From a virus: a stretch of 64,000 nucleotides of DNA. The translations under genes were made by a program, and so were the position numbers. This document shows positions 26,884-45,047 of the stretch, piece after piece. The stretch is taken from the IMG/VR virus record IMGVR_UViG_3300034190_001539, positions 37,286 to 101,285 of that record. One strand, given 5' to 3'. Position 1 is the stretch's first letter. Each line of letters begins with the position of its first letter. The notes under the pieces are model-generated. The model worked only from the letters and a program-made list of their open reading frames with translations, searched no databases and was not told the origin of the DNA.

Positions 26884-29800
26884 TTATGTTGTGATATTAC
26901 CTGGTACTGGTGCTTTTGAAGGATCGAATTGAGTAGAGCCACCAGCCGGTGGTGCTATAGTACCACCAGCATTGAATGAAAATTTACCTACCGAAGTTAC
27001 TGTAGTGTGTACTTCATTTCCATATCCTCTAATTGATACGCCTGGTTCTATTTTTATTCCACGCTTTGCATTATTAGAATTTGAATCAATACTACCTGAT
27101 GCTATAGAAAATGTTGCAATATTACCACCAGTTGCTGTAACAGCACCTGACATTGATACATTACCACTAGCATCCACATTAAAATTATCTGTTACGACAA
27201 CTATTTTTCCACTTACGGATTGAATATATCCTGCGTTAGTACCACCATTTTTGATTAAAACATCCCCATCAGCATCTACAAAGAATCCTTTTTCTGTACT
27301 TGCCGTATCTGTAACACTATCTACTGTTCCTAATTTAAGTGATGTCTGTGTAAGCTTAAAGTTTGTTGAACCTAATGAAAAAACTTCAGATTTAATATTA
27401 AGTACTGGATTTGCGTCTGAAGCAAAGATTATTGCATTATCACCGGAATCATCACTTATTTCAAATTTAGGAATGTCATCGTCTATACCAAGAACAAAAC
27501 CAATTTGGTCATTATCAAATGCATTAAAAGGATCATCAAAATGTGCACCACCAGCTATGAAACTATCAGTACCACCCGCTATCTTTACCTTATTACCTAA
27601 AGACATTGAAGCTTGTGTTGCAGATATTCCAATACCAGAAGCTACGCTTGTTGATTCTATTGAGCCAGACTTTATCGTAAATCCACCTATTGTACCTTCT
27701 ACAGCATTTACTTTTCTAACTATCACATCTCCATCAGTTTTTATGTGAAATTTAGATGAACTTACTTCAAAACCAGTACCAGTATCAAATTTTAAAAAGG
27801 CAGTAGAACTACCTACTCTAAATACACTTCTACTTCCATCGTCTCTTGTACCAAGTATTATAGGTATAGAAGTATTTGATTCTAACGCTACACCACCGCC
27901 TACATTATTACCTATGAGTATACCAAGAGCGTCATCACCATCTATTTGTAGATTACCAGAATTAGCATCTATTCTTATTCTTTCTGTAGATGATTGATTA
28001 AAATTTATATTAGAATCACCGATTGACCAACCACCTACTTTTAATACATTACTTTCATACTTAAAATTACTTCCAATAGACATTCTGTTGCCAGGTCCAT
28101 CAATAAAAGTTCTATTACTTTGACCAAAGTTATGTGTACCAGTTCCTAATGAAAGAACACCACTACCACTTAATATTGCATTTGGTACATTTGAAGTTTG
28201 TTTTGAAGATGATATAACCCCACCACCAATAGTCCAACCACCAGCAGTTAATGTATCGTCTACATAAGAAAATGTCGAACCTACATAAAATACAGGTTTA
28301 GTAGAAGCACTAACGAAGAACAATCCATCGGTTGGTGTACCAGTTGCTGTTGTAGCACCAGTTCCGAGTGCGATTGAAGCGTTATTACCATTTATATCCG
28401 CTACAGTTCCACTACTTAATCTACCAGGTATTAATTCCCAACCAGCTAATTTAGCTTTATTTGCTGTTATTAATACCGAAGCACTATCTTGACTTCCCGA
28501 TACTTGACCTGTTCCACTAAATACTGCAAATCCATATGGTGAATCTACTGTTCCGTCATTTAGTGGTAATTTTCCTAATACTAATTTTGGTTCTCCATAA
28601 TCTATACTACCAGTCCAAATTGTTAGGGATTGACTAAAAGCACTAAGAGCCACACTACCACCAGCATTGTCACTCTTTATTGTTCCTGGCATCAAATCCC
28701 AACCAGCAATCATATTTTGACCTTGACCAAGTTCTGCTATTAGATTTCCATCAGCAGTTCCACCACCATTAAATATTTTTAATCCATAAACACTACCACC
28801 ATCAACTTCACCTAAGTATATTCTATCATTACTTCCATCGTTAATTGTAATTCTTTTTGCAGCTGCACTTATTGTTATTATATCAGATGGACTTGTTATA
28901 GCTGCTGTTGATATTGTCCATCCAGCGATTGTATTTCCACCCTCACCTAATTCTACAAGTATATCACTATCGGCTGTACCAGTTCCATCAAATATTTTTA
29001 GTCCATAAACAGTACCATCATCAACCTCACCCAAATGAATCATCTCAGTACCATTGGTTTTAGAGATAGTAATTCTCTCAGTAGCAGCGTCTATATTTAT
29101 TGTATTGCCAGAACTACTTATAGCAGTTGCTCCTATTCCCCAACCACCGATATTACCTGTTTTAGCATTTATAGCACCCTCTAAGTAAACAGAACCTGAT
29201 GCCCATAATCCAAAATTACTATTATCTCCAGAATCTCCGTCTTTATCTAAACTACCAAATCTAGGAGAAGTTATTCCAGCTAAATTACCAAGCCTCACTA
29301 CAGCAGAACCACTATTTGAGTTTACATCTATAAAAGGGCTATTAGGTGAAGAAGCATCAATAGCTACTGTACCACCATTTATTCTGGCAGCCGTTGAACC
29401 AACATTTATATTATCTAAATCTCCTATTACATTGTCCACATTGTATGTATCAAAATCTCCACTTGTAGTTTTACTTCCAGCTATTTGAAATTGTACAGCA
29501 TTTATATTTCCAGCATCATTCGCATCTTTGAAAAGTAAAATATCATTGTCGCTGAATGTAGCAGATTTAGTATTATCAAATGTAACAGTACCACCACTTT
29601 GAGAAGAGCCTGATACGACACCACTATCTGATACGAATAAAATACCATTAGTTGCTTTGACAATATCTTTTTGGAATATATGTGTTCTTAAAGTATTTCT
29701 TACTACTATATTATCTACCTCTAACAATGTTCCATTGGAAGCATTATCTTGTATTCTAAATCCATCACCAGTTATACCTGATATAAAAGTTGAAGTTCCT

Positions 29801-32800
29801 AAAGTTTTTGTGTCAGCAAATGTAACATCACCAGTTACGGCTAATGTACTTCCATCAAAAGTAAGATTAGCTTCAGCGTTCATAGCGTCTGTACCAGTAG
29901 CAGTTACAACCCTATTGTTTGAACCATTTGCCATAAAGTCTGAGACATCTACTGAAATTGCATCTGCGGCAACATCAATTCCTGTTCCAGCACCTACTGC
30001 GAGAGTTCTATTAGCTGCTATAGTTCCACCGCCTGTTAAACCATCGCCTGATATAACCGATACTGCTGAGTGGTCAATGTGTTCATTAGCAACAAATCCA
30101 CTTAAATTATCGTGTACGATTTCACTATCTGTAGTTGTTATTTCATTAGCGTTAGCAGTTATACCTGTTCCGCCAACTACATTTATTGTTCTATTTGCAG
30201 CTATTGTTCCACCGCCGGTTAATCCGGCACCTGCTATAACACTTACTGAACTATGGTCTATATGTTCATTTGATACAAATCCACTTAAATTATCGTGAAC
30301 GATCTCACCATCTGTGGTTGTTATTTCATTAGCGCCGACAGTTATACCTGTTCCACCTATAACATTTAAAACTGAGTTGGTGGCAGTCATACCAGCTCCA
30401 GCTAATAAGGTTGCTACATCAGCAAATGCTTCTTTTTTAAGAGTACCAGTTGCCCCACCATCTAAAAATAATACATAATCCCCATTTGCTAAAGTTTCTT
30501 CACCAGCCTCAGACAAATCAACATCTATCTGATTTGCTTGGACATCTACAAAATTACCAGCTATAGCATTTACTGTAATCGAACCACCTAATGTTACAGT
30601 ACCCCCACCAGTCAAACCTGTTCCAGCAGTTACTGTCACAGCATCTTCTGCTAATCGACTAATTGGTATTTCATCATTATCAATTTCAGCAACTATTGCT
30701 GCGGCTAATTCATCTGATATACCACTAGCTTCAAGCCTACCAAACGAACCTGTTGAGGTTGATGAACCACTTATTGCATGTCCAGTTCCCACGAACTCAA
30801 TTCCTGTTCCTGTGCTATCATTTCTGATTTTTAATGCTGTTGTACCAGTAGCACTTGCATGGTCATTTACTATTTCAACCAGATTCCTTGTACCTGTGTC
30901 TGAACTATTTGAACCAAAATACGCTATTCTTCCAGTTGTTAAACTATCTGCTCCATCTACCATTAAAACAGAACCACCAGTATTAGCTGGAGTTGGAATA
31001 TAAATAGTTGAGTTTGAAGTTGCTTCTGAATCTATGTAAAGTGCAGCATTATTACCATCCTGATCTATTTCCAATCCATACTGACCTTGATCCTGTTCAA
31101 TTTTTATTCCAGATTCTGCTCCAGTTGCATTATGGACAACCAATGTTGCTTCAGCTGAAGCCAACGATGCCCCAATTCCTGCTCTTTTTGTAGCGTTTAC
31201 CATACCAAACGAACCGGTTGAAGCAGCTGAACCACTTATTATATTACCTGTTAAATTTAAAAGTTCTGTATTATTTACATCGAAGTGTATTTCGTTTGCT
31301 GTTTCAAAATCTATTTTAGTTTGAGCATCTTCACCAATAACTAAATCAGTTTTATAGATAGATTCAATAGTTGTTTGAGCTGCTGTGATAGCAATATCAT
31401 TTGCGTTTGCAGTAATTCCATCCCCACCAATTACATTTATTGTTCGATTAGCTGCTATTGTTCCACCACCAGTCAATCCAGTACCAGCTACAACTGATAC
31501 AGATGAATGGTCTATATGTTCATTAGCAACAAATCCACTTAGATTGTCATGAACTATTTCTGAATCGTTTGTTGTTATGTCATTTGCGTTTGCCGTAATA
31601 CCAGTTCCACCAACTACATTGATAGTTCTGTTAGCTGCGATTGTTCCACCGCCAGTTAATCCGGCACCTGCTATAACACTTACTGAACTATGGTCTATGT
31701 GCTCGTTTGCAACAAATCCACTTAAATTATCGTGAACAATCGCTGAATCATCAGTTGTAACCTCATTAGCTCCTACACTAATACCAGTTCCACCTATAAC
31801 ATTTAAAACCGAATTAGTAGCCGTCATACCAGCTCCAGCTAATAGTGTAGCTACATCAGCAAATGCTTCCTTTTTCAAAGTACCAGTAGCACCACCATCT
31901 AAGAAAAGAACATAATCACCATTTGCTAAGGTTTCTTCGCCAGCTTCTGATAAATCTACATCTATCTGATTTGCTTGAACATCTACAAAATTTCCAGCTA
32001 TAGCATTGACTGTGATTGAGCCACCTAATGTTACAGTACCCCCACCAGTCAAACCTGTTCCAGCAGTAACAGTAACTGCATCCTCTGCTAACTTAGCTAT
32101 TGGGATTTCGTCATCATCTATTTCAGCAACTATCGCTGCGGCTAATCCATCTGATATACCACTAGCTTCAATTCTACCAAATGAGCCTGTAGAAGCAGCT
32201 GAACCGCTTACTATATCGCCTGTTAAGTTTAATAATTCTTTATTGTTTACATCAAAATGTATTTCGTTTGCTGTTTCAAAATCTATCTTAGTTTGGGAAT
32301 CTTCTCCAATTACTAAGTCTGCTTTGTATATAGACTCTATTGTAGTCTGAGCTGCTGTAATAGCAATATCGTTGGCATTTGCAGTTATACCATCTCCACC
32401 AACGACATTAATAGTTCTTGTTGAGGCTATTGTTCCACCGCCTGTTAAACCATCACCAGCAGTTATAGAAACTCCACTGTGGTCTATGTGTTCGTTTGCT
32501 ACAAAACCACTTAAATTATCGTGTACGATTTCTGAATCATTAGTTGTTATATCATTTGAATTTGCAGTAATACCTGTACCACCAACTACATTTATTGTTC
32601 TATTTGCAGCTATTGTACCGCCACCTGTTAAACCAGCACCTGCTGTGATTGAAACAGATGAATGGTCTATGTGTTCGTTTGCTACGAATCCACTTAAATC
32701 ATCGTGAACTATTTCTGAATCGTTTGTTGCTATATCGTTTGCGTTTGCCGTAATACCAGTTCCACCAACTACATTAAAAGTTCTATCACTAGCTAATGTA

Positions 32801-35800
32801 CCACCGCCTGTTAAACCAGCTCCAGCAGTTAATGTCCTACCTTGTAATGTATCTACATTACCTTCTTCGGTTGTTACTCTAGTAGCTAATGATGATGAAA
32901 CAGCAGTGAACGAACCACTAATATTTGAGGCTAATGTCGAATCTGAAAAGTCTACTGCTAAATTTTCTGAACCTTCATCTTTAAGTCCAGTCCCTGCAAA
33001 GTCACTAACATCTACTCCTATATTTTCTGAACCAAGGTCTTGTAAACCATCTCCTACAAAATCACTTACATCTACATTTAATGTTACTGAACCACCTAAT
33101 GTTACAGAACCACCAGTTTTTAAACCATCACCAGCAGTTATTGTTACAGCATCCTCTGCTAGTTTTGCTATCGGAATTTCATCATCATCAATTTCTGCTA
33201 CAATCGCTGCGGCTAATCCATCCGATATACCGCTAGCTTCTATTCTTCCAAATGAACCAGTCGAAGCAGCTGAGCCACTTACTATGTCGCCAGTTAAATT
33301 TAATAATTCTTTATTGTTTACATCGAAGTGTATTTCGTTTGCTGTTTCAAAATCTATTTTAGTTTGAGCATCTTCACCTATAACCAAATCAGCTTTATAA
33401 ATGGATTCAATAGTTGTCTGAGCTGCTGTGATAGCAATATCATTTGCGTTTGCAGTAATTCCATCCCCACCCACAACGTTAATAGTTCTGTTAGCCGCTA
33501 TAGTACCGCCACCTGTTAAACCAGCACCTGCTGTGACTGATACACTACTATGGTCTATATGCTCATTTGCTACGAACCCACTTAAATCATCGTGTACTAT
33601 TTCAGAATCGTTTGTTGCTATGTCATTTGCGTTTGCAGTAATACCAGTTCCGCCAACCACATTAAAAGTTCTATCGGAAGCTAATGTTCCACCGCCAGTT
33701 AAACCTGCACCAGCAGTCAATGTTCTACCTTGTAATGTGTCTACATTACCTTCTTCGGTTGTGACTCTACTAGCTAATGAGGATGATAAAGCAGTAGAAG
33801 AACCAGTGACATTTGAGGCTAATGTGGAATCCGAAAAATCGACATTGAAAGTTCTACTAGCTGCTATAGTACCACCACCACTTAAACCAGTACCAGCAGT
33901 CAATGTTACTCCACTATGGTCTATGTGTTCGTTTGCTACGAAGCCACTTAAATTATCGTGTACAATCTCACTATCTGTGGTTGTAATCTCATTAGCATTA
34001 GCAGTTATTCCAGTCCCACCAACAACGTTTAGTGTGACTGCGCCAGTATCACCACCACCTGTTAAACCATCACCAGCAGTTACACTCGTAATGTCTCCCT
34101 CACTAACTTGAAGTCTAGATGAAATAGAAGCTGAAAAGTCTGTTAGGTTGGTTGATGCTCCACCAAATCCAGCAACATTAACTGCGCCAAATGAACCTGT
34201 AGAAGCAGCTGAACCACTTATTATATCACCAGTTAAGTTAAGAAGTTCTGTGTTGTTTACATCAAAGTGTATTTCGTTTGCTGTTTCAAAGTCTATCTGA
34301 GTTTGAGAATCTTCACCAATTACTAAGTCTGCTTTATAAATTGATTCAATAGTTGTTTGAGCTGCTGTAATGGCTATATCATTGGCATTAGCCGTAATTC
34401 CATCACCACCAACTACATTTATTGTTCTATTTGCAGCTATAGTTCCACCACCAGTCAATCCAGCACCAGCCGTAACTGATACAGATGAGTGATCGATATG
34501 CTCATTAGCAACGAACCCACTTAAATTATCGTGTACGATTTCAGAATCGTTTGTAGCAATATCATTTGCATTTGCTGTAATACCAGTTCCGCCAACTACG
34601 TTAAAAGTTCTATCAGAAGCTAATGTTCCACCGCCTGTTAAACCAGCACCAGCAGTTAAAGTTAATGATTGAAAAGAACCACTAATATCATCACCAGCAT
34701 CAGAACCAAATGATGAATTCCAAACACCATTGGATATTGTTGTACCATCTATTGCACTATTTATTGTACTTCCTGCTATGATATGTACGTGATTTCCTTT
34801 AGCAAACTCTCCAACATTTCCATCACTAGCAGTAGTTCCTATCGCTTCGGGATCGGCTGTGTAAGCCTGTAAGGCTGGAGCACCTAATGTTCCAGCAACT
34901 TGACTATCGTTTGTAAAACTTTCTCTGTTTATAGCAGTTCCAAAATTAGCTACTCCACTACCACCTCTAATCTCAATACCAGCTCCAGTCATTTTAATAA
35001 AACTATCTTCTGAGTTGTATATTAATAAACCTTGTGGTGTTAATTCTACTTTTCTCGTATTACTACGAACAGAAAAATTATCGAATGTTATTTCAGTTTC
35101 AGGATTCTCTGCGGTTGTACTTCCAACTACTGTTTTGGTAAATGTTTTCTTACCTAAACCTGTATTTACAGTTCCCTTATTACCTGCAAAAAGTGGTTTT
35201 TCTACAGTAAAACCAGTATCATCATTAATACTTCCTGTTAATACAAGCTTTATATAAACGGCAGCTTCTGGTAATTCAGCCGAAGCACCAAAACTATTGT
35301 ATTGTCCACTTCCTAAAAAGTATTCACCATAACCATTTGAAGCAGTATATTCATTTTCAGGTAAAAATGGAATCCAACCATTACCGCCTGAAGCACTATA
35401 TTCTGCTCTAAAATATTGTGGGCCTAATGCCCTATCTTTTCCAATTTTATTAAATGATGAACTAAATCTAGCAACCGAACTAAAACTTATAGTATCACCA
35501 GCTGCAAAAGATTCTGTCATAATGTTTTCTAATAGGTACTGATTACTTCCTGTATAATTAACTGCTCCGCTTGGTACAACAATGTCTAAAGTATTGTCTC
35601 CACTTACTGCTTGATCGTCACCTGAATAACCACTCCTATCGGTTAATGAAACAAAAACAGCATCGGTTGTAGAGAAAGACCAACTGGTAATATTAGAACC
35701 AGACCTTACATTTCTACCAGCTGCTATTGTTTGATCTTCAAAACTTTTATTTCCTATATATTGTTGTCCACCACCTATTGTTTGAAATGAACCTGATTTT

Positions 35801-38800
35801 ATAGATACTCTTTCAACACCAAGATTATCCTTTACATTTAGCCCATGCGTAACACTACTCAATTCAACTGTTTCTTCTTCGTTTATAAGTTTATCAGATT
35901 CTATATTAAATCCACCTATTTTTCCACCACTAAATAAAACTTGTGAGCCTGTAATTTCTCCAGTACTTTTTAATATTAATTTATCGTTTGATGAATTTAT
36001 TTGAGTTTGTGCTATTTCAAATCCACCAATAGTACCTGTTCCTGTAACATCAATATTTCCATCAAATAATGCTGATGAGCCTGTTATATCTCCATTTTCT
36101 TTAATATTAAATTTTGAAGTACTAATAAACATATGTTCATCTAATGGTAATCCACCTGTCTTTGGGCTACCACTTATGAATATATTAGCACTATGAAATG
36201 AATGACTATCGGTAGTAAACCCTCCGATTAAACCAGCGCTAGCAGTAATTGTACCAATAAATGTGGCACCACTTGCTATAAGAATACCATCTTTGTCAAC
36301 TGTAAAGTTTGGTCCGAATTTAACATAAGCATTATCAGGGTTTTCAACTGTTGGTGAAAAATCTATATAGTACTCATCTTTTAAAGATAAATTACTCTCA
36401 CCAGTGTCGGTGCCTGGACCTTGGTCTGATTTAAATATAGTAGAGTTGTTAGCATCCATTGTAATATTACTACCACTAATTCTACCATTATCTATTGTAA
36501 AGTTTCCAATATTACCACCCTCAGCAGTTATAATACCACTCATAGTAACATTACCTTCTGGTGTTAGATGAAAATTAGAAGAACTTATTTCTATATTACC
36601 CTCAGAACCACTAACAAATTGTCCAGCACCACCTAAGAAAAATTTAGATGAACTCATAATCAAATCAGTTCCATCAAATTGTATTCTACTACCAGTTGGT
36701 TGTCCTACACTAAAAATTTCGTTTTTACTATCTACGTGAAATTTAGATGAACTTATTTCTATATTACCGCTAGAACCACTTAAAAATTGTAAACCCTCTC
36801 TACCGACAAAGAAAGCATCTGCTTGTACATCAAATACGCTTGGGCTAGTTCTAAATTTTAAAGAACCACTTTCTCCAACTAATTCTAAACCAACACCTTT
36901 GTAATTATCCCCACTGTCTGGCAATACAGAACCACTATAAATCATAAATCCATAAGAGCCAGATTGTGCTGATGCTGATACAAATCCTTGGTAGCCTATA
37001 GAACGAATGAAACCAGATCCTTCAGCACCATCTTTACCAGTTTCAGGTAGTTTTGAATCAACACCACCAAAGTGAATACCACTTCCAGTAGTGTCTCCAC
37101 CTAAGAACATATCACCACTTTGAATATTATCATTACCACTTATTACTATGTTAGCACCAGTAAATACAGAGCCAGTTGTGAAAGCAATCTCATCTGCAAT
37201 ATTATTATTTATATCATAAAACTCAGTTAAAAACTCTAAAGTCTCAGGTCTTTTATGTTGTAATGGAGCAGGAAGTTCTTGTTTAAATTGAATAAACGAT
37301 GGTGAGAATCCTGTATCCGATGATGGTCTAATAGATACATCTGATATATTCCACTTTCCTGATATAACTCTAAACTGAACATTACCATCTCCAGTTAAAT
37401 CAGAGTTGAAATTATGAGTTACTGTTCTAAAATCTTTTTGACTATCTTCATCCGATTCTATTTCTAAAACTCCCAATCTTTTTCCATATTGAGGTGGCTC
37501 TGCTATTTGTTTATTCGTAACATCATCAGTAAATAAATTTATTGCTTTAGTCATTGAAGAACCTGATACATATAATAACATCAATGCTCTACTATCAGTT
37601 CCTTTTTCTGCTCTAGCCTTAAAAGATAAAGTATAATCTATACCAGTTGTTAAATCAAATTTGTATTTGTCTTTTAATTGAAATTTTATTTGGTCTGTGA
37701 ATGTCGATATACTTCCTGATAGCATAACAGAATCCAACATCGAATCATTATCAAAAGAAGCTGTAGTAGTTGCTGTCGGACCTGACAATCCATTTGTGCT
37801 ACCCGACACAACCCAATATGTATCTTTATCTGTTTCGGATACGAAGTAACCTGTTCGTTCTCCGATGCCTACTGAATCAGAGTTTACCAATAACTCAGGA
37901 GATTCTAACGGAACTTCTGCTAGTAATTTAAAATCATCAAAAGCTCCCTCAGCTCTTACATAAACTTTTGCTTTGAATACATCACCTGAAAAAGTTCTCA
38001 TATTACCTAACCTAATGTCGGCATAAGAAACTATATTCTTTAAACTATAAGAAGCGCTAGGTTCTACTTCGTAAAATATTTGAGCATTTGCCCGTACAGG
38101 TAATACTATGTATTCTCCCTCTCTGTTTTGTTTTGTAAAAGGTGTACTTACATATGCTGTTCTACTGTTTTCTAATTGTGCGATAGATCCTGTGTAATGT
38201 GTTGGATGATTTCTATCTTTCGTATCGGTTACTATCTGAAAAGAAACATCACTAGCACGACCTAATCCAACATCTTCTAAAGTTCTATCATTATAAATAG
38301 AAGAAGTAATATCAGAAAATAAAATATCACCACCTATTTGAGTAGTATCAAATTTGTGGTCTCCGCCGGTTATTGTAAAACTATATGGATATTCAATAGG
38401 AGAATTTCTACGTTTTATTCTTTTAGATCTTTTAGTTCTACTATCACCCCTAACACTTTGTTTTTTAGTAGATCGTTTATTTAATTCTTTATCTGCCTTA
38501 TCACCCTTTACATCACCTTTTGGAGGACCTTCTCTTTTTACATCTCTCTGTTCTTTTATTCCAGCACCCTTTGCTAAAAGTTCATCTTCTCCACTTGTAA
38601 ATGGTCTGAATTCAAATCCTGATGCTGGTCTACCCTCAATTTGAAATATTGAAGATGATGCTATAGGAGAACCACCTTCTCTTTCTAAAGTACCAAATCT
38701 TTGTTCTATAGCTCTTAGTTGTGGAGAAGCATAAAATTTTATAGGTTGTATGTTTATTTCTGCTGGATTTATAATAACTTCACGAGTAAGTCTTATATTG

Positions 38801-39195
38801 TATGCACCTTGAAATTCTTTAGGTACAGGTCTTACATCACTAAATTGACCAGGATCATCAGGCACATATTCTAATTCACCAACTATTATTAACGTAGCAA
38901 TTCCAGCTGCTGTATCATCATACACCTCAACTGATATTGTTCTCGAAGTACCCTCTAAATAATTTTGTACAGGCTCTGAATAAATACTCTGTCCTTTTGA
39001 ATCGATAAAATCCATCTGTAACTCTGTACCTTCTTTAAGGTATGGAGAAACCTCTATAAGAAAAGAGCTCTTTCCTTGAGGTAGACTTTGGGGCATATCA
39101 GTTATAGTTATATATCTAGAGGTTTCTCTATCGTCAATTAATACATCTATTTCTTCAAGCCCGAGTAATTTATTGAATCGTTTGACTGCAGCCAT
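26884..39195 (-). CDS. Giant repetitive tail-fibre protein, 4103 aa
   Basis: A 12.3-kb gene. Residues 1-200 form an apparent attachment domain (RYITITDMPQSLPQGKSSFL). About 212-266 is a basic low-complexity linker. About 270-1500 holds beta-rich modules, many with ISGSNIT- or GGFTI-type strands. About 1500-3070 carries some fifteen TAGAGLTGGG repeats, nine LSGFVANEHIDHS blocks and repeated ISGSAASTGSFG linkers. The C-terminal 1000 residues contain GGWGIG/IAGWTI modules with KIFDGTGTADS-like repeats. No S74 or endosialidase domain is present. AGGAAC lies before the ATG. It is likely a long tail fibre or adhesin with host-range function; trimerisation and chaperoning are not visible. The frame is open throughout. 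Confidence 0.88.
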   Translation of the reverse strand: MAAVKRFNKLLGLEEIDVLIDDRETSRYITITDMPQSLPQGKSSFLIEVSPYLKEGTELQMDFIDSKGQSIYSEPVQNYLEGTSRTISVEVYDDTAAGIATLIIVGELEYVPDDPGQFSDVRPVPKEFQGAYNIRLTREVIINPAEINIQPIKFYASPQLRAIEQRFGTLEREGGSPIASSSIFQIEGRPASGFEFRPFTSGEDELLAKGAGIKEQRDVKREGPPKGDVKGDKADKELNKRSTKKQSVRGDSRTKRSKRIKRRNSPIEYPYSFTITGGDHKFDTTQIGGDILFSDITSSIYNDRTLEDVGLGRASDVSFQIVTDTKDRNHPTHYTGSIAQLENSRTAYVSTPFTKQNREGEYIVLPVRANAQIFYEVEPSASYSLKNIVSYADIRLGNMRTFSGDVFKAKVYVRAEGAFDDFKLLAEVPLESPELLVNSDSVGIGERTGYFVSETDKDTYWVVSGSTNGLSGPTATTTASFDNDSMLDSVMLSGSISTFTDQIKFQLKDKYKFDLTTGIDYTLSFKARAEKGTDSRALMLLYVSGSSMTKAINLFTDDVTNKQIAEPPQYGKRLGVLEIESDEDSQKDFRTVTHNFNSDLTGDGNVQFRVISGKWNISDVSIRPSSDTGFSPSFIQFKQELPAPLQHKRPETLEFLTEFYDINNNIADEIAFTTGSVFTGANIVISGNDNIQSGDMFLGGDTTGSGIHFGGVDSKLPETGKDGAEGSGFIRSIGYQGFVSASAQSGSYGFMIYSGSVLPDSGDNYKGVGLELVGESGSLKFRTSPSVFDVQADAFFVGREGLQFLSGSSGNIEISSSKFHVDSKNEIFSVGQPTGSRIQFDGTDLIMSSSKFFLGGAGQFVSGSEGNIEISSSNFHLTPEGNVTMSGIITAEGGNIGNFTIDNGRISGSNITMDANNSTIFKSDQGPGTDTGESNLSLKDEYYIDFSPTVENPDNAYVKFGPNFTVDKDGILIASGATFIGTITASAGLIGGFTTDSHSFHSANIFISGSPKTGGLPLDEHMFISTSKFNIKENGDITGSSALFDGNIDVTGTGTIGGFEIAQTQINSSNDKLILKSTGEITGSQVLFSGGKIGGFNIESDKLINEEETVELSSVTHGLNVKDNLGVERVSIKSGSFQTIGGGQQYIGNKSFEDQTIAAGRNVRSGSNITSWSFSTTDAVFVSLTDRSGYSGDDQAVSGDNTLDIVVPSGAVNYTGSNQYLLENIMTESFAAGDTISFSSVARFSSSFNKIGKDRALGPQYFRAEYSASGGNGWIPFLPENEYTASNGYGEYFLGSGQYNSFGASAELPEAAVYIKLVLTGSINDDTGFTVEKPLFAGNKGTVNTGLGKKTFTKTVVGSTTAENPETEITFDNFSVRSNTRKVELTPQGLLIYNSEDSFIKMTGAGIEIRGGSGVANFGTAINRESFTNDSQVAGTLGAPALQAYTADPEAIGTTASDGNVGEFAKGNHVHIIAGSTINSAIDGTTISNGVWNSSFGSDAGDDISGSFQSLTLTAGAGLTGGGTLASDRTFNVVGGTGITANANDIATNDSEIVHDNLSGFVANEHIDHSSVSVTAGAGLTGGGTIAANRTINVVGGDGITANANDIAITAAQTTIESIYKADLVIGEDSQTQIDFETANEIHFDVNNTELLNLTGDIISGSAASTGSFGAVNVAGFGGASTNLTDFSASISSRLQVSEGDITSVTAGDGLTGGGDTGAVTLNVVGGTGITANANEITTTDSEIVHDNLSGFVANEHIDHSGVTLTAGTGLSGGGTIAASRTFNVDFSDSTLASNVTGSSTALSSSLASRVTTEEGNVDTLQGRTLTAGAGLTGGGTLASDRTFNVVGGTGITANANDIATNDSEIVHDDLSGFVANEHIDHSSVSVTAGAGLTGGGTIAANRTINVVGGDGITANANDIAITAAQTTIESIYKADLVIGEDAQTKIDFETANEIHFDVNNKELLNLTGDIVSGSAASTGSFGRIEASGISDGLAAAIVAEIDDDEIPIAKLAEDAVTITAGDGLKTGGSVTLGGSVTLNVDVSDFVGDGLQDLGSENIGVDVSDFAGTGLKDEGSENLAVDFSDSTLASNISGSFTAVSSSLATRVTTEEGNVDTLQGRTLTAGAGLTGGGTLASDRTFNVVGGTGITANANDIATNDSEIVHDDLSGFVANEHIDHSSVSITAGAGLTGGGTIAANRTINVVGGTGITANSNDITTNDSEIVHDNLSGFVANEHIDHSGVSITAGDGLTGGGTIASTRTINVVGGDGITANANDIAITAAQTTIESIYKADLVIGEDSQTKIDFETANEIHFDVNNKELLNLTGDIVSGSAASTGSFGRIEASGISDGLAAAIVAEIDDDEIPIAKLAEDAVTVTAGTGLTGGGTVTLGGSITVNAIAGNFVDVQANQIDVDLSEAGEETLANGDYVLFLDGGATGTLKKEAFADVATLLAGAGMTATNSVLNVIGGTGISVGANEVTTDDSAIVHDNLSGFVANEHIDHSSVSVIAGAGLTGGGTIAANRTINVVGGTGITANANDITTNDSEIVHDNLSGFVANEHIDHSSVSVVAGTGLTGGGTIAANRTINVIGGDGITANANDIAITAAQTTIESIYKTDLVIGEDAQTKIDFETANEIHFDVNNTELLNLTGNIISGSAASTGSFGMVNATKRAGIGASLASAEATLVVHNATGAESGIKIEQDQGQYGLEIDQDGNNAALYIDSEATSNSTIYIPTPANTGGSVLMVDGADSLTTGRIAYFGSNSSDTGTRNLVEIVNDHASATGTTALKIRNDSTGTGIEFVGTGHAISGSSTSTGSFGRLEASGISDELAAAIVAEIDNDEIPISRLAEDAVTVTAGTGLTGGGTVTLGGSITVNAIAGNFVDVQANQIDVDLSEAGEETLANGDYVLFLDGGATGTLKKEAFADVATLLAGAGMTATNSVLNVIGGTGITVGANEITTTDGEIVHDNLSGFVSNEHIDHSSVSVIAGAGLTGGGTIAANRTINVVGGTGITANANEITTTDSEIVHDNLSGFVANEHIDHSAVSVISGDGLTGGGTIAANRTLAVGAGTGIDVAADAISVDVSDFMANGSNNRVVTATGTDAMNAEANLTFDGSTLAVTGDVTFADTKTLGTSTFISGITGDGFRIQDNASNGTLLEVDNIVVRNTLRTHIFQKDIVKATNGILFVSDSGVVSGSSQSGGTVTFDNTKSATFSDNDILLFKDANDAGNINAVQFQIAGSKTTSGDFDTYNVDNVIGDLDNINVGSTAARINGGTVAIDASSPNSPFIDVNSNSGSAVVRLGNLAGITSPRFGSLDKDGDSGDNSNFGLWASGSVYLEGAINAKTGNIGGWGIGATAISSSGNTINIDAATERITISKTNGTEMIHLGEVDDGTVYGLKIFDGTGTADSDILVELGEGGNTIAGWTISTAAITSPSDIITISAAAKRITINDGSNDRIYLGEVDGGSVYGLKIFNGGGTADGNLIAELGQGQNMIAGWDLMPGTIKSDNAGGSVALSAFSQSLTIWTGSIDYGEPKLVLGKLPLNDGTVDSPYGFAVFSGTGQVSGSQDSASVLITANKAKLAGWELIPGRLSSGTVADINGNNASIALGTGATTATGTPTDGLFFVSASTKPVFYVGSTFSYVDDTLTAGGWTIGGGVISSSKQTSNVPNAILSGSGVLSLGTGTHNFGQSNRTFIDGPGNRMSIGSNFKYESNVLKVGGWSIGDSNINFNQSSTERIRIDANSGNLQIDGDDALGILIGNNVGGGVALESNTSIPIILGTRDDGSRSVFRVGSSTAFLKFDTGTGFEVSSSKFHIKTDGDVIVRKVNAVEGTIGGFTIKSGSIESTSVASGIGISATQASMSLGNKVKIAGGTDSFIAGGAHFDDPFNAFDNDQIGFVLGIDDDIPKFEISDDSGDNAIIFASDANPVLNIKSEVFSLGSTNFKLTQTSLKLGTVDSVTDTASTEKGFFVDADGDVLIKNGGTNAGYIQSVSGKIVVVTDNFNVDASGNVSMSGAVTATGGNIATFSIASGSIDSNSNNAKRGIKIEPGVSIRGYGNEVHTTVTSVGKFSFNAGGTIAPPAGGSTQFDPSKAPVPGNITT
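30000..34670 (-). repeat. In-frame tandem repeats of the giant fibre gene
   Basis: About 4.7 kb of imperfect long repeats. Units of roughly 200-480 bp encode GLTGGGTIAANRTINVVGG, GITANANDI, SEIVHDNLSGFVANEHIDHS, and a longer block IESIYKADLVIGEDAQTKID followed by STGSFG. Different copies differ mostly at synonymous sites, which indicates old duplications kept for protein structure plus ongoing exchange. Confidence 0.85.
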
Positions 39196-39284: not shown

Positions 39285-39458
39285 ATGAAAAAGAAATATT
39301 CATTTACTATAGAAGAGAGCCTAATGGAATGGTTTAGAGTGCATGTTAAAGAAGAAAGCACTACGATGAGCGCAGTCCTGAATCAATATGTATTAAGTTT
39401 AAAGAGAGGTGAAACTAAACCCAAAAGAATTATGTACTCTAATCAAATGAAACGTTAG
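39285..39458 (+). CDS. Ribbon-helix-helix-like small regulator, sole plus-strand gene
   Basis: A 57-residue protein beginning MKKKYSFTIEESLMEWFRVH. A short strand (KYSFTI), a helix (EESLMEWFRVHVKEE) and a second helix (TMSAVLNQYVLSLKRG) fit an Arc/CopG-type ribbon-helix-helix DNA-binding fold, with a basic tail. I chose ATG 39285 because GGAGA lies 8 bases upstream; the in-frame ATG at 39270 has no ribosome site. It diverges from the giant fibre gene, and its last 20 bases overlap the 3' end of the gp47-gp46 gene tail to tail. It is likely a transcriptional or translational repressor acting on the divergent promoter region. The target is inferred. Confidence 0.62.
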   Translation: MKKKYSFTIEESLMEWFRVHVKEESTTMSAVLNQYVLSLKRGETKPKRIMYSNQMKR

Positions 39459-42400
39459 AGAATTTATCTTCCTTCTTTATTTCCAACAGAGTATCTACAG
39501 CATCTCTCATAGAATCTATATGTGAAACAATCATTGTAAATTGAAACTGAGTCTTTAAATATTGAAATAGATTATAAACTGAATTTAGATTATCCGAATC
39601 CATTGTACCCCAACCCTCATCAATAGCTAAAAAGTTAGCTGCTGGTAGATTAGAAACGTTTATCAATCCTACTCTCATAGCTAATGAAGATATGAACCTT
39701 TCCATTCCACTACTTAATTCAAGCGGCCAGACATTATCATTATCATAAACAATATAACAATTAACATTCTTACCATCCATTTCTAGTATCATAGAGAAGT
39801 CTACAATTTGTGCTAGTATATCATTTACAGCGCCTTCAATTGTTGGGAGAGCTTTAGAAATAAGTTCATAAGGTATACCATCACGCTTTACAGCATCTAA
39901 ATAATACTGATAAGCAGCATACTTACCTTCTAATTCTTCTACTTTTTTAATATTATCCAATATAGTTTTACGATTTGTTTCTAATACTTTAATCTCACCA
40001 TTTACTGATTGTAGTTTCTTATCTAACTCCTCTATTTCTATTTCTAAATTATCAGATTTATTTTGTGAGCTATCTATATCACTATACAAACCCATATTGA
40101 AGATAATATCTTTTTCTTGTTCGTGATACAAATTAATCTTATCTTCTAAAATAGCTAATTGATTTATTAAGTTTTTTCTTTTTTCTGTATTTAACTTTGT
40201 CTCACTATCTAATTTACTTATATTTGTAGTTAGTAAACTTAAACTCTGTATTGAGGAATCCATTTGTTCTTTATGAGCCGTAATATGAGACAGCCCAGTT
40301 ATAATATTTTCTAAATTATTAGATTGTTTTACAAAAGTATCGGCTAACATTTTATCATCATTTAACTTTTTCTTTGTTTCCATAGCATCTAATGTAAAAG
40401 GATTACTCATACAATAAGAACAATCAGAATCATATTCTAAATTACCAAGCTTATCAATCTTATCTAATTTGTTCTTAACTTCTATTTTAAGTTTATCTAT
40501 TTCAATTTGATTGTTTGATTTTTCTAATTTGTATTGTTCTAGTTGTGCATACTTTTTATCTATTTTATTTTCTTTATAGATTTTAATCTTTTCATTTAGC
40601 TCAGTTTTTTCTGAAGAAAACTTTTCTGATTGTGCAACTATCTCACCAACTCTCTCATCTACCTTTGTCAAAGCATTAGTTAGATTAACTTTTCTTTCTT
40701 CCAACTCATCTAAACTATCAGCAGTTTCATCTACTTTTCTGAGTTGTTTTGTGAGATGAATTATTTTTCTATCTTCACGTTTTTTATTAGCTATCATTTC
40801 TTTTTTAGAAGAAGTTTTTTCTTTTGATTTTTTTCTAAAATCAGCTAGACTTTCTTTTATATCAGCTAAATCTTTATCGTAGTTGTTATTTTTAAAAGAT
40901 TTTAGAAGAGAGGATACGTCGTGTATTTCATCTGCGGCTAATTTCCAAAGATCGTCAAATACACCAATACCCATAAATTGTGCAAGTAAGTCTTTTCTTT
41001 CTTTTTGTGTCTTATCAATAAATACAGTTGAGTTTGTTTGTAGAGAAAGTGCTGTCATTACAAAATCATCATAAGTACCAATCAATCTACGAATATTTAC
41101 ATCTGTAGTTCTTCTTTGGTCTCCGTTCATAGAAACCTTTTCACCATCATCAGCAAATGTATAGAAATCTACATTTACCTTAACGTGACCATTTGATTGC
41201 TTTTTAGCATTTCTTTCTATAAAGTATTCTACACCCTCAACCTCTAAAGTAGCTTTACATTTGAACCAATCTTTTTTATTATTAAGTACATTGATTGCTT
41301 TATAAGCTCTTGAAGATCTATCAAATAGACAGAATGATAGGGCATCTAATAAAGAAGATTTACCACTAGCATTAGGAGCAAACATTCCAATAATACCACT
41401 CAGCTTTGTAAAGTCTACAACATTATCTTCTCCATAAGAAAACATATTATCAAACTCAAACTTTTTAACTTGCCAGCTAACTCCCCTATTTACATCATCT
41501 TCTGGCAATCTACTATTTAATTCTTCATTTATCTTTTTAATATCTATTAGAGTTTCATTATCTACAAAGTGATTTGCTTTTAAATATTCTTCTATTAGAT
41601 TATATTGATAATCAGAATCTCTGACATTACCAACTGCTATGTGTTGTCCTCTTACTTTATCGGTAGAATATATAGAGTCTGTTTTTGTAACTGTAACTTC
41701 TTTGATTCCATATTTACTATGAATTAAACTCATAGCTTTTTTTAATTCAGATGGTTTTGTGTTTGATACTCTAACCCTTAAACGAGCTTTCTTTGGAATA
41801 TCAGGACAATCTGGCACCTTACCATTATCAATATTTATAGTGTAATAGCCGTAGTCATTCGGTATTTCTATATACTCAGACTTTCTCTTTGGAACATCCC
41901 ACAATAAATAACCATGACTTAATCCTTCTCCGTGATTCTGTTGTACCAATGAACCACAATAAGAAATGGTTTCCTCTTTATTGAGATGCTGTCTTTTGTG
42001 GATGTCGCCAAGCAATCCCATATCATAACCTTTAAATTTAGCAATCTTTACATCCGATGGAAGAAAGAATCCTAAATCTGTTTCCGACTTATCTACTGTT
42101 CCGTGAAAGAGAACTACCTTTGTATCACCCTCAAAGTCTTTAGCCTCAATATAGTCATCTTCTTTTTCCCATACATCCCAAACAACGAACTTTACATCAG
42201 CACATTTATATACACCACTATCTTTTAGGTAATGTAAATCTTTGTGTTTTAGGTTGTTTACAATTGGAGAAAGAACATCCATTCTCGAACGATTATTTAA
42301 GTTACAATCGTGGTTTCCAGCAATCAAAATCGTTGGACATATATCCGCAAGATTCTTAAATAAACGAGAGAGTTGATCGACTAATTCAGGTGACATTTCG

Positions 42401-42594
42401 GTTTTTGAATGAGCTATATCGCCACCAATATAGACTACGGCATTATCTTTATGTTTTTTTACCTGTTCGTATGTACGTTCAAAAACTTCTTCGTATTCTA
42501 TATGTCTTTTTAGATTACGAATCTGTATATCTGAAATGTGGTGTATGTATTTTAATTTACGAAATGGTACTTTTACAACATTTTCTTTAATCAA
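39439..42594 (-). CDS. 47-46: Fused gp47-gp46 recombination nuclease/ATPase (Mre11-Rad50-like)
   Basis: A 1051-residue single chain. Residues 1 to about 370 form the Mre11/SbcD calcineurin-like nuclease (T4 gp47): SDIQIRN, GGDIAHSK, AGNHDCN, VLFHGT and GDIHKRQ. Residues of about 375-1051 form the Rad50/SbcC ATPase (T4 gp46): Walker A FAPNASGKSS (Lys412), long coiled coils around a zinc hook Cys725-x2-Cys728 (CSYC), signature LELSSGMER (about 957-965) and Walker B FLAIDEGWG (about 991). T4 makes these as two proteins that resect DNA ends for recombination-dependent replication. The start is TTG at 42594, overlapping the upstream stop as TTGA with AGAGGA upstream; no nearby in-frame ATG exists. 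Motif I has Gln where His is usual. Confidence 0.9.
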   Translation of the reverse strand: MIKENVVKVPFRKLKYIHHISDIQIRNLKRHIEYEEVFERTYEQVKKHKDNAVVYIGGDIAHSKTEMSPELVDQLSRLFKNLADICPTILIAGNHDCNLNNRSRMDVLSPIVNNLKHKDLHYLKDSGVYKCADVKFVVWDVWEKEDDYIEAKDFEGDTKVVLFHGTVDKSETDLGFFLPSDVKIAKFKGYDMGLLGDIHKRQHLNKEETISYCGSLVQQNHGEGLSHGYLLWDVPKRKSEYIEIPNDYGYYTINIDNGKVPDCPDIPKKARLRVRVSNTKPSELKKAMSLIHSKYGIKEVTVTKTDSIYSTDKVRGQHIAVGNVRDSDYQYNLIEEYLKANHFVDNETLIDIKKINEELNSRLPEDDVNRGVSWQVKKFEFDNMFSYGEDNVVDFTKLSGIIGMFAPNASGKSSLLDALSFCLFDRSSRAYKAINVLNNKKDWFKCKATLEVEGVEYFIERNAKKQSNGHVKVNVDFYTFADDGEKVSMNGDQRRTTDVNIRRLIGTYDDFVMTALSLQTNSTVFIDKTQKERKDLLAQFMGIGVFDDLWKLAADEIHDVSSLLKSFKNNNYDKDLADIKESLADFRKKSKEKTSSKKEMIANKKREDRKIIHLTKQLRKVDETADSLDELEERKVNLTNALTKVDERVGEIVAQSEKFSSEKTELNEKIKIYKENKIDKKYAQLEQYKLEKSNNQIEIDKLKIEVKNKLDKIDKLGNLEYDSDCSYCMSNPFTLDAMETKKKLNDDKMLADTFVKQSNNLENIITGLSHITAHKEQMDSSIQSLSLLTTNISKLDSETKLNTEKRKNLINQLAILEDKINLYHEQEKDIIFNMGLYSDIDSSQNKSDNLEIEIEELDKKLQSVNGEIKVLETNRKTILDNIKKVEELEGKYAAYQYYLDAVKRDGIPYELISKALPTIEGAVNDILAQIVDFSMILEMDGKNVNCYIVYDNDNVWPLELSSGMERFISSLAMRVGLINVSNLPAANFLAIDEGWGTMDSDNLNSVYNLFQYLKTQFQFTMIVSHIDSMRDAVDTLLEIKKEDKFSNVSFD

Positions 42595-42812
42595 GTATTA
42601 TCCTCTATAAATTTTTTGACTTCTTCTAATTTATCGTTTGGTACTACAATATCCCAAGAAGTTTCTTCTGAAAGACTTCCACTTTCATAATAAATAGTAG
42701 TTGAATTCTTCAAATCAAATTTTATTTTTACTTTGTTTAGCAGCTCGCTGTCTGTAAAATGAACTTTCCATTCATCGTCATTAAATTTCCATATATTTTC
42801 GTTTTTTGCCAT
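42591..42812 (-). CDS. Small acidic hypothetical protein, 73 aa
   Basis: A 73-residue protein, MAKNENIWKFNDDEWKVHFT, with alternating strands (VKIKFDLKNSTTIYYESG, TSWDIVVP) and a C-terminal helix (DKLEEVKKFIEDN). No known motif is visible. It overlaps the primase end by 32 bases and the gp47-46 start by 4, so it is translated as part of the replication set. GAGGATGA lies before the ATG. Possibly a small partner of the primase or nuclease; this is from position only. Confidence 0.6.
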   Translation of the reverse strand: MAKNENIWKFNDDEWKVHFTDSELLNKVKIKFDLKNSTTIYYESGSLSEETSWDIVVPNDKLEEVKKFIEDNT

Positions 42813-43722
42813 TTAATTTCATCCTCATCAAATCAGAAAAAGAAGTTTGCTTTGTTTCTTTTATAAGATTGATTACCTTTTTAAATCCCATATCTGAAGG
42901 ATCTTCTTCTTTAAGATTAACAAAATATACATCAATGCCATTTCTCATCAAATCATCGGTTATTTTTATAGAATCTTTAATCGCATCGCTATCTAATAAT
43001 ATATATATCTGCTTAACTCTTTTTTCGTAGATTTTCATCTTTAATTTTTTTGGTATAGTTTTACCAAATAATGGTATTGCATTTCTTCTAATAGCCATAG
43101 CATCAAATGAACCCTCACATAATACAATAGGTTCATCCCAATTAACAAATAATTCAAATCCTATAACATCTTTAGATACAGGTGGATTTTTATATTTCAT
43201 ACCACCACTGTAAATATCTCTACCAACAAAATAATTAATCTCTCCATCGCTGTTATATGATGGTATTATAATTCTGTTTCCATATACACCATCTTCACAA
43301 TAACCAACATTATAACGAATCACATCACCCATTGTAATTCCACGCTTTTTTAAATAATTCATAGCGTGTCTTTTAATTATACTATCTTTGCTATTCCACA
43401 GAGGTTTGAATTCTTTTGGTAATCTTACAACATTTTCCTTGACTTTCTCACGATTTGATGATAGTGATTGGCGTGGTTTTCCTACTATGTCTGCTAATTC
43501 ATCGAATTGTTCTCTACTTGCTTTTAGCTTTTTGAATAATTGAAATAGGTTATGACCACCTTGATTAGAAATCCAACAATGCCATTTCTGAGTTTTTGTA
43601 TTTATCTGTAATTTAGGTTTATGGTGATGTACGAATGGTGACCAATACATATACTCATTAGCTTTATTTAAAAGCCTACCATTGTTTCCAATTACCCTAT
43701 TTAGAAGATTTATTATTTTCAT
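42781..43722 (-). CDS. 61: DNA primase, TOPRIM family (gp61-like)
   Basis: A 313-residue DnaG-type primase. The N-terminal domain (KWHCWISNQGGHNLFQLF) resembles the primase zinc-binding/CHC2 region, but most zinc-ligand Cys are missing and His-rich YWSPFVHHHKP stands in front, so metal binding is uncertain. The TOPRIM core has VLCEGSFDAMAI with Glu near residue 203 and YILLDSDAIKD with Asp-x-Asp near 243-245. It makes RNA primers at the phage fork with a helicase that is not in this window. It overlaps the upstream resolvase gene by 26 bases. Function is confident; the T4 number is by analogy. Confidence 0.85.
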   Translation of the reverse strand: MKIINLLNRVIGNNGRLLNKANEYMYWSPFVHHHKPKLQINTKTQKWHCWISNQGGHNLFQLFKKLKASREQFDELADIVGKPRQSLSSNREKVKENVVRLPKEFKPLWNSKDSIIKRHAMNYLKKRGITMGDVIRYNVGYCEDGVYGNRIIIPSYNSDGEINYFVGRDIYSGGMKYKNPPVSKDVIGFELFVNWDEPIVLCEGSFDAMAIRRNAIPLFGKTIPKKLKMKIYEKRVKQIYILLDSDAIKDSIKITDDLMRNGIDVYFVNLKEEDPSDMGFKKVINLIKETKQTSFSDLMRMKLNGKKRKYMEI

Positions 43723-44050
43723 TTATTAGTTCTATAAATTTATCTATGTTAATGACAGCATAAGTTTTACTTCTGTTTCTTTTAAATATCAGAACAGGAT
43801 CGTAATCACCACTATTTTCTTCAGCTTGTTTTAATGATGACCATATATTTAATGCTTCTTGATTTTTACATTCAAATGAATAAGGGATTAGTTTTCGAGC
43901 CGCTGGAGATAATTTAATATCTTCTCCTGATTCACCCATAATAGCAGATTTAATATCATCCGGCTCTAACTGATTAAATGTTTCTAGCAAAAGGTCTCTT
44001 ACATTGTTTTGAAGTCTTTTACCTTTATTCTTAGCACTTCTTGATTTCAT
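43697..44050 (-). CDS. Holliday-junction-resolvase-like PD-(D/E)XK nuclease
   Basis: A 117-residue protein with the layout of a short PD-(D/E)XK nuclease: a basic N-terminal helix (SAKNKGKRLQNNVRDLLLET), MGESGEDIKLSPAARKL with the catalytic Glu/Asp, then SFECKNQEALNIW with Glu-x-Lys, and a final strand (PVLIFKRNRSKTYAVIN). Very similar short nucleases in phages are annotated as putative Holliday-junction resolvases. It would process recombination intermediates made by gp47-46. It is first in the replication operon. Its ATG lacks a Shine-Dalgarno and is preceded directly by a run of ACAAGTA repeats, which may control its expression. Confidence 0.78.
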   Translation of the reverse strand: MKSRSAKNKGKRLQNNVRDLLLETFNQLEPDDIKSAIMGESGEDIKLSPAARKLIPYSFECKNQEALNIWSSLKQAEENSGDYDPVLIFKRNRSKTYAVINIDKFIELINENNKSSK

Positions 44051-44219: not shown

Positions 44220-45047
44220 TTAAAATCTTTTATTCAAATATTTTTTCACTTCTTTTTGAGCCCACCTTTCAGCTCTCTCTTCCCATTTATTATCATCGTG
44301 AGGATCTAATCCATCATAAGCAGCCATAGTTCCTGCCTGTGTATATTTTTTAATATATTTTCTGACTCCTAACTGTTTTGCATCCAGTGCATGTTTTATT
44401 TCGTGCAGTACAGTTATTAAGAACTCTTTTACGCTTGGATAGGATGGTCTCAATGTTACAGTATCGGTTTCGGGTATATACTCCCCCATATCTTTTCCAC
44501 TACCTATTTTCACTTTAGATTTCAGTTTATACTTCTTAATCATTCTCTGTGCAGTATCTAAGTAGTCTATTCTTTCTACTAATAAATAACCCATAGCTTT
44601 TTTATAAAAAGAAGCCATCGATTTATTTCTTTTCTTAAATTCATCAGAATCCTTTAGAAAAGCAGCATATCCCTTTGGACCAGGCGAATCACCTGTAACA
44701 GTAGATTCTTCTAATCCCTCTGTATTTTGTGAATTAAAATCTTTATCTATAACCCAATCCTCCCAATTTTCAAAATGTGCTTCAAAGTCTTTATCTATCT
44801 GAGCCACATAGGCAGTTTTTATTACTGAATAATCTTCTTCCTCACCTTTACCATAGATATAATCAGCTTTAGGAAAATCAATCTGTTCATATCCACCTCT
44901 TTCAAACCAAGGTTCAGGTTTACCTGCTAGTGTTCCTAATTTTCTCTTTCTATCACCTCTGATAAAACCTGTATCCGGCTCACCTTCGTCAGCACCATAT
45001 CCACCGATATTAGAAGATACTTCCATCATTTTTTTAAATTTACCCAT
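44220..45047 (-). CDS. Predicted zincin metallopeptidase, 275 aa
   Basis: The C-terminal half has a zinc-peptidase active site: HEIKH at His215-Glu216-His219 in FLITVLHEIKHALD, and a Glu-rich helix (EERAERWAQKEVKKY) about 40 residues on that can give the third ligand. The N-terminal half is polar (SSNIGGYGADEGEPDTGFIR) and contains LEES-TVTGD near 112-120, a (Leu)-x-Glu site like the head proteins. It is last in the baseplate operon, its ATG sharing a base with the previous stop. The substrate may be host envelope, a virion protein or a host factor; nothing in the sequence decides. Confidence 0.65.
   Translation of the reverse strand: MGKFKKMMEVSSNIGGYGADEGEPDTGFIRGDRKRKLGTLAGKPEPWFERGGYEQIDFPKADYIYGKGEEEDYSVIKTAYVAQIDKDFEAHFENWEDWVIDKDFNSQNTEGLEESTVTGDSPGPKGYAAFLKDSDEFKKRNKSMASFYKKAMGYLLVERIDYLDTAQRMIKKYKLKSKVKIGSGKDMGEYIPETDTVTLRPSYPSVKEFLITVLHEIKHALDAKQLGVRKYIKKYTQAGTMAAYDGLDPHDDNKWEERAERWAQKEVKKYLNKRF

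Follow-up and report, generated by a model that had tools for sequence, protein, structure and literature searches.

How Mre11 and Rad50 can be carried on a single polypeptide, and what then becomes of the contacts that hold them together, is the question raised by a gene in a 64,000-nucleotide stretch of viral DNA (positions 37,286 to 101,285 of IMG/VR record IMGVR_UViG_3300034190_001539), here called the window. The gene runs from 42594 to 39439 on the minus strand and consists of 1051 codons without a stop, its TTG start overlapping the TGA stop of a small open reading frame (ORF) upstream. A sequence-only reading had seen in it a Mre11-like nuclease and a complete Rad50-like ATPase in one uninterrupted frame, and this is borne out by the frame itself, by Pfam, and by structure comparison. 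The product is interpreted here as a single-chain Mre11-Rad50 complex, the counterpart of bacteriophage T4 gp47 plus gp46, that would process DNA ends for recombination-dependent replication; the probability of this reading is put at about 0.85.

Both domains reside on the same polypeptide with Mre11 first, as seen from the frame, motifs, an AlphaFold model, and database comparisons. Pfam matches above cut-off comprise Metallophos at residues 17–200 (E value 3.4e-8) and AAA_23 at residues 382–621 (8.5e-10); SMC_N (376–1044) lies slightly below its cut-off, NCBIfam SbcC and SbcD matches also fall below theirs, and the SbcC-like PHROG 77 matches residues 375–1049 with an E value of 1.4e-41. In the full-length AlphaFold model (mean predicted local distance difference test score, pLDDT, 78.6; predicted template modelling score, pTM, 0.45), residues 14–303 align with Mre11/SbcD structures at Z of about 24—exemplified by Staphylococcus aureus SbcD 7dog_A (Z 24.2, root-mean-square deviation (rmsd) 3.5, 271 residues aligned)—and residues 374–1051 with Rad50/SbcC heads at Z of about 26 (7yzo_D: Z 26.4, rmsd 3.5, 346 aligned); a sequence comparison with the PDB also supports the two assignments. 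The nuclease core, a calcineurin-like phosphoesterase fold with its capping domain, spans residues 1–304 (41683–42594; like all parts of the gene, on the minus strand) according to Pfam, structure, and sequence comparison. The ATPase is of the split ATP-binding cassette type: its N-lobe (residues 373–545, 40960–41478; Pfam and structure comparison) carries the Walker A motif APNASGKS (residues 406–413, 41356–41379), and its C-lobe (39442–39879; motifs and structure comparison) the signature LSSGMERF (960) and the Walker B motif FLAIDEG (988; read on as FLAIDEGW). Between the lobes, the model predicts an antiparallel coiled coil (residues 546–905, 39880–40959) with the CxxC zinc hook CSYC (residues 725–728, 40411–40422). 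The positions given earlier for Walker A Lys412 and the hook are exact. Lys412 is present in 222 of 226 rows, the remaining rows being gaps, and both hook cysteines are invariant in 24/24 alignment rows.

If the boundary of two real genes had been lost through an assembly or sequencing error, close relatives should not share the continuous frame. Relatives were pooled from several scans—the best 80 of 129 in a first viral scan, 5/5 in genome_contigs, the best 80 of at least 588, 20/20, and 71/71—giving 255 loci, or 226 after loci contained in another were dropped; the rankings of the first viral scan and of the scan with at least 588 matches favour long matches and hence fused ones. All 80 first-scan relatives (identity 39–100%) keep the gene in one open frame; the gene is complete in 78 and cut by a contig end in two (L031 and L072). 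This excludes the lost stop or frameshift between residues 360 and 390 that had been named as the refuting evidence. Of the 169 loci then gathered, 160 run in one frame from residue 45 or earlier to residue 1000 or later. The nine exceptions are cuts by a contig end (L031, L088, L089, L133, and L134), an interrupted gene (L083), T4 with its separate genes (L169), a distant fusion in one frame that aligns in part (L084), and the window's own minus-strand copy, which the script did not count (L001). The homologue search that had been proposed to gauge how common the fusion is gives the fused form, with Mre11 and Rad50 profiles in the same frame, in 223 of the 226 non-duplicate loci, a count that takes in frames truncated at contig ends, L203 (broken within the nuclease part), and eight loci fractured by a putative intein; of the other three, L258 has separate frames, and L089 (cut by a contig end) and L269 show the Mre11 profile only. 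The 71-locus scan used two peptide patterns that read as Mre11 motifs and so did not demand the Rad50 part, yet the junction lies in one frame at 62 of its 64 non-duplicate loci. An artefact is therefore rejected on the counts of 80/80, 160/169, and 223/226: the independent contigs already refute it, single long frames also occur in the cultivated phages Mel-JY01, pT24, PTm1, PAU, and MA9V-1, and the chance of such an error is practically nil.

In complexes of separate chains, a helix-loop-helix at the C-terminus of Mre11 binds the root of the Rad50 coil. The sequence-only reading had proposed that fusion may make these helices dispensable. A covalent link could in principle do their job, and single residues of the region are less conserved in the more distant rows of the Mre11-motif scan; moreover, the Bacillus phage fusion lacks the capping and helix-loop-helix part according to excerpts of PMC3175470. 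The window protein, unlike the latter, appears to have kept it at residues 327–361 (41512–41616), as judged from models and from sequence and structure alignments. The full-length model and a half-length model of the Mre11 part (mean pLDDT 84.7, pTM 0.78) both place helices at residues 327–341 and 346–360/361 with fair to high confidence, and the profile of the Mre11 half aligns through the helices of full-length Thermotoga maritima Mre11 (chain 3qg5_C, residues 167–376). In structural alignments, the Escherichia coli SbcD chains 7yzo_B (310 residues aligned, model residues 15 to 372, rmsd 4.8) and 6s85_B (309 residues, to 372, rmsd 5.3) are followed to the end of the region, and the alignment with the helix-carrying chain 7yzp_B (307 residues) extends through it. 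Chains 6s6v_A, 3av0_A, and 3qg5_C (320, 315, and 313 residues aligned) reach model residues 360–364, but with rmsd values of 8.3, 10.8, and 17.7. The remaining bacterial and archaeal Mre11/SbcD chains down to Z 21 have 258–279 residues aligned; with 3tho_B and 5dny_A, although these chains are long, the alignment already ends at model residues 304 and 307, perhaps because the helices stand differently relative to the core. A profile of nine separate phage Mre11 proteins aligns with the fused half only to residue 276, short of the helices, and thus speaks neither for nor against them. Even at L258, where the nuclease has become separate, a segment that by eye resembles the helices heads the Rad50 ORF. 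That the fusion replaces the helix-loop-helix grip thus seems highly improbable, and the proposal that it frees the protein from these helices is not upheld, since they are predicted and match T. maritima Mre11 and E. coli SbcD.

Between the helices and the ATPase, the models show a linker of about 11 residues (362–372, 41479–41511), in agreement with the nine to twelve residues estimated from the T. maritima complex (PMC3175470, in excerpts). Because the helices are retained and the linker has this length, the fusion most likely tethers the normal Mre11-Rad50 interface rather than replacing its grip, and the retained helices would still hold Rad50. The fixed 1:1 ratio, which had also been suggested, would follow from the single chain.

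The metal site of the Mre11 part differs from the canonical one. It is formed by D22, Q24, D59, N94, H95, H164, D197, and H199, which we take to be the equivalents of D8, H10, D49, N84, H85, H173, H206, and H208 in Pyrococcus furiosus numbering, a mapping partially supported by the T. maritima alignment. The full canonical ligand set D, H, D, N, H, H, H is broken at two positions, where Gln24 and Asp197 stand in place of histidine. Asp197 is nearly family-wide (224 of 226 rows, with one gap and one His), and position 24 (codon 42523–42525, minus strand) is His in 150 rows, Gln in 74, and a gap in two; Gln24 marks the clade of the window and, separately, four rows resembling PAU and the Tenacibaculum phages (L204–L207). 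Since the window's clade has Gln for a metal-1 histidine, and 224/226 rows have Asp for a metal-2 histidine, a tethering or clamp protein with a weakened nuclease, acting mainly by ATP-driven DNA binding and bridging, can be envisaged. This is unlikely, however: D22, D59, N94, H95, H164, and H199 do not vary across the 24 aligned rows (His95 is found in 225/226 rows, the remaining row being a gap), a conservation that argues for retained catalysis, and aspartate can bind Mn2+. Since two metal ligands are changed, the fusion is not classed as a canonical Mre11; it has the build and probably the action of one, the variant metal site being shared in part by Mimivirus R555. The protein also carries GDxxH (H62) in place of GDxxD. 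GDxxH together with the exchange of His206 for Asp has been reported for Mimivirus R555 (PMC3175470, in excerpts).

By analogy with cellular homologues and T4 gp46/gp47, a pair of chains would form the usual M2R2 particle, with two Mre11 and two Rad50 parts. In such a particle the nuclease domains would dimerise, the Rad50 lobes would clamp DNA on ATP binding, and the coils would meet via the zinc hook, with the helix-loop-helix of each Mre11 part gripping a Rad50 coil at the root, probably in cis on the same chain. Given nuclease and ATPase activity, for which the same analogy speaks, resection and tethering of DNA ends would start recombination-dependent replication and repair, as is established for T4 gp46/gp47 in replication (summarised in PMC3175470, in excerpts). 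Several points weigh against the single-chain reading. With a pTM of only 0.45, the full-length model leaves the relative placement of the domains uncertain, and with it the proposed cis binding of the helices. Nuclease activity is not assured, as the exchanges at Asp197 (nearly family-wide) and Gln24 (74/226) affect two usual metal ligands. That the virus might encode another SbcC apart from the fusion was considered and rejected, the AAA_23 match being found once per record—in the fusion—in 11/11 records searched, although these records are not established as complete. Additional Metallophos genes with frames of 220–271 amino acids are present in 4/11 of them (G003, G004, G007, and G008). 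A single-chain Mre11-Rad50, with its stoichiometry and pairing fixed, would lend itself to structural studies, and its variant metal site, like the fractured relatives discussed below, offers a natural test of the contacts that the complex needs.

The fusion is not a rarity, as had been implied, but the usual state among the relatives found, and it has been in print since 2011. A search of phage records with the window protein yields 52 matching records, two of them with more than 80% query cover, one from Mel-JY01 and the other from an uncultured 484-kb phage with an interrupted gene. Two distant fused queries add the Tenacibaculum phages pT24, PTm1, and PTm5, the Chryseobacterium phages MA9V-1 and MA9V-2, Sphingomonas phage PAU, and a 735-kb uncultured phage; frames were inspected for pT24, PTm1, PAU, MA9V-1, and the 735-kb phage, whereas PTm5 and MA9V-2 are known from the search rows. 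Separate Mre11 and Rad50 genes occur in T4, Twort, PG07, MTATph1, S-RIM2, Cba120, LysYB1, OspM_OC, and Larrie. The earlier statement that T4 and the cyanophages encode the two proteins separately thus stands for T4 and the cyanophage S-RIM2 but not for the Microcystis phage Mel-JY01. The impression that gp46 and gp47 are always two phage genes is thereby corrected: among the relatives found, the fused form is the rule. Plasmid-borne relatives amount to two weak partial matches. Cellular sequences are represented by five loci in genome_contigs (L085–L089), all in metagenome-assembled genomes, from a scan that detects only matches to its two peptide patterns; their bins are titled Chloroflexi, Gammaproteobacteria, Nitrosopelagicus, Dehalococcoidia, and Cellvibrionales, and the loci are perhaps misbinned phage contigs.

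A quick tree with midpoint root places 27 fused rows on one side and nine separate rows on the other side of a single branch, with a Shimodaira–Hasegawa-like approximate likelihood-ratio test (SH-aLRT) support of 92. This topology requires one change and, together with the Asp197 common to both fused groups, fits a single fusion among these phages without proving it. Independent fusions in the group of the window and Mel-JY01 and in that of PAU and the Tenacibaculum phages, as opposed to one ancestral event, nevertheless deserve serious thought and fall a little short of an even chance: the tree contains several long branches and lacks separate-gene rows from cells, and PMC3175470, in excerpts and with other rows, found that its thirteen fusions form no single grouping and inferred several fusion events.

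Among the titles and abstracts listed from the open-licence literature, PMC3175470 alone treats Mre11/Rad50 fusions. As excerpted, this 2011 paper lists thirteen of them—including Mimivirus R555, that of Bacillus phage 0305phi8-36, and those of Deferribacter and Clostridium kluyveri plasmids—with the Mre11-then-Rad50 order of the window and, in most, a capping and helix-loop-helix-length region and a similar linker length. Homologues of R555 were enriched in viral fractions, and phage owners were inferred for aquatic homologues, on whose scaffolds phage primases occurred; environmental confirmation was then available for few long sequences only. R555, going by the description there, is larger (1351 amino acids) than the 1051-residue window protein, whose DNA is from a tailed phage since portal, terminase, major head, and baseplate genes are present in the window. 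The window gene can be placed in the phage pool described in that paper as a full-length representative, and many further full-length fusions are now added to the 2011 set. It is a real but largely ordinary gene, such fusions having been published since 2011 and being frequent in phage sequences. Excerpts of other papers touch on the subject: PMC7824862 states that SbcC and SbcD are nearly universal in jumbo phages and, in the excerpted text, does not mention a fusion, R555 is mentioned in PMC6466248, and the words "SbcDC fusion" occur in PMC4213011. One of the closest known counterparts, Mel-JY01 WWT39521.1 ("AAA domain containing protein"), is a fused protein of 1066 amino acids with 39.5% identity over 99% of the query and, as in the window, a DNA primase-like gene upstream; it differs in having His at position 24 where the window has Gln, and its host is Microcystis elabens. 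No paper on Mel-JY01 was found in the open-licence literature. In PAU, pT24, PTm1, PTm5, MA9V-1, and MA9V-2, both matches fall under one gene annotated as metallo-phosphoesterase or "DNA repair"; these proteins of about 1300 amino acids match the window protein weakly or not at all when compared directly, pT24 alone appearing with 27% identity over 20% of the query. The T4 and S-RIM2 homologues have the same two activities and likely the same role in recombination-dependent replication, but their genes are separate: two small ORFs intervene in T4 and one in S-RIM2.

Several relatives carry the fused gene in a fractured form. In nine loci (L230, L233–L237, L240, L243, and L246, of which L236 duplicates L235) the frame breaks directly after the Walker A lysine (GENQ[VA]GK / S) and continues for 17–32 residues that start with C[VL]HP[EDQS]T and resemble the N-part of an intein. 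In 6/8 records searched, a frame of 857–867 amino acids (776 at a contig end) at another place in the record encodes the remainder of Rad50, whereas none was found in G017 and G018; the record of L237 was outside this search. In 5/5 records inspected, about 130 residues with a terminal HN stand at the head of the C-part frame and SNILN comes next; the halves lie about 4 to 6 kb apart with genes of opposite orientation between them. The C-parts are L275 (1–2511, minus strand) and L296–L300. At the expected place in L275, the NCBIfam model intein_Cterm (TIGR01443) scores 14.9 bits against a cut-off of 15.6 in a search at E 10. Since no N-terminal intein model of NCBIfam matched L240 or L234 at E 10, the call of the N-part rests on motif reading; Pfam at E 0.05 likewise gave no intein domain in the C-part of L275 or the N-part of L240. 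Motifs and arrangement point to a probable split intein exactly in Walker A, and trans-splicing of the two Rad50 products is the best reading. Among the titles and abstracts listed from the open-licence literature, none shows an intein in Rad50/SbcC.

Other breaks lie in or just behind the nuclease. In the 484-kb phage (L083, 5959–10184) an insert splits the nuclease domain of the fusion directly behind GDIHKRQ; the ORF in this insert matches a TnsA-like endonuclease slightly above the Pfam cut-off. An intron was considered for this insert and rejected, as Rfam at E 1 returned two chance-level matches below their gathering scores and no intron family; at E 0.5, Rfam gave no match at seven further loci where the gene is interrupted or split. 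At about the same point, L203 (2992–6226) is broken into two overlapping frames without an insert. L258 (2992–6678; L261 has the same sequence) encodes the nuclease core in a 263-residue ORF, followed by a 222-residue ORF and then by the Rad50 ORF, which still carries a segment resembling the capping end plus helix-loop-helix. L269, with the Mre11 profile only, is possibly similar to L258. That one ancestral fusion marks a very large lineage of tailed phages and was broken again several times—in the cases inspected never at the old gene boundary, but within or just after the nuclease (L083, L203, and L258) or, with the short N-part, by a split intein in Walker A—is given about even odds. If true, Rad50 activity in the split-intein phages would depend on trans-splicing of products from two genes set kilobases apart.

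On the minus strand directly upstream of the fusion lies the 73-amino-acid ORF noted above (42591–42812), which has no family match. The nearest named gene upstream, in the same direction, is a DnaG-type primase (42781–43722), preceded by a RusA-like/PDDEXK nuclease (43697–44050, minus strand; annotated by PHROG as Holliday junction resolvase). At least 1300 bases of sequence precede the gene in 170 of 184 loci examined (duplicates included), and 164 of these 170 have a primase directly upstream within the limits set. Of the six exceptions, L089 shows none, L130 and L192 overlap by 70 and 67 bases where the limit was 50, and L203 has one ORF in between. At L163 and L166 the measurement was upset by a read-through match (gap -1011) and the primase proved adjacent on inspection; a triple fusion with the primase was rejected there, a stop codon separating the frames. 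In Twort, a single stretch holds the separate genes for Mre11 and Rad50 together with a primase and a RusA-like gene. Downstream of the fusion, an ORF of 4103 amino acids (26884–39195, minus strand) contains many near-repeated stretches and is possibly a fibre-like structural protein. A 275-amino-acid ORF (44220–45047, minus strand) shows a weak match, under the Pfam cut-off, to zincin-like metallopeptidases.

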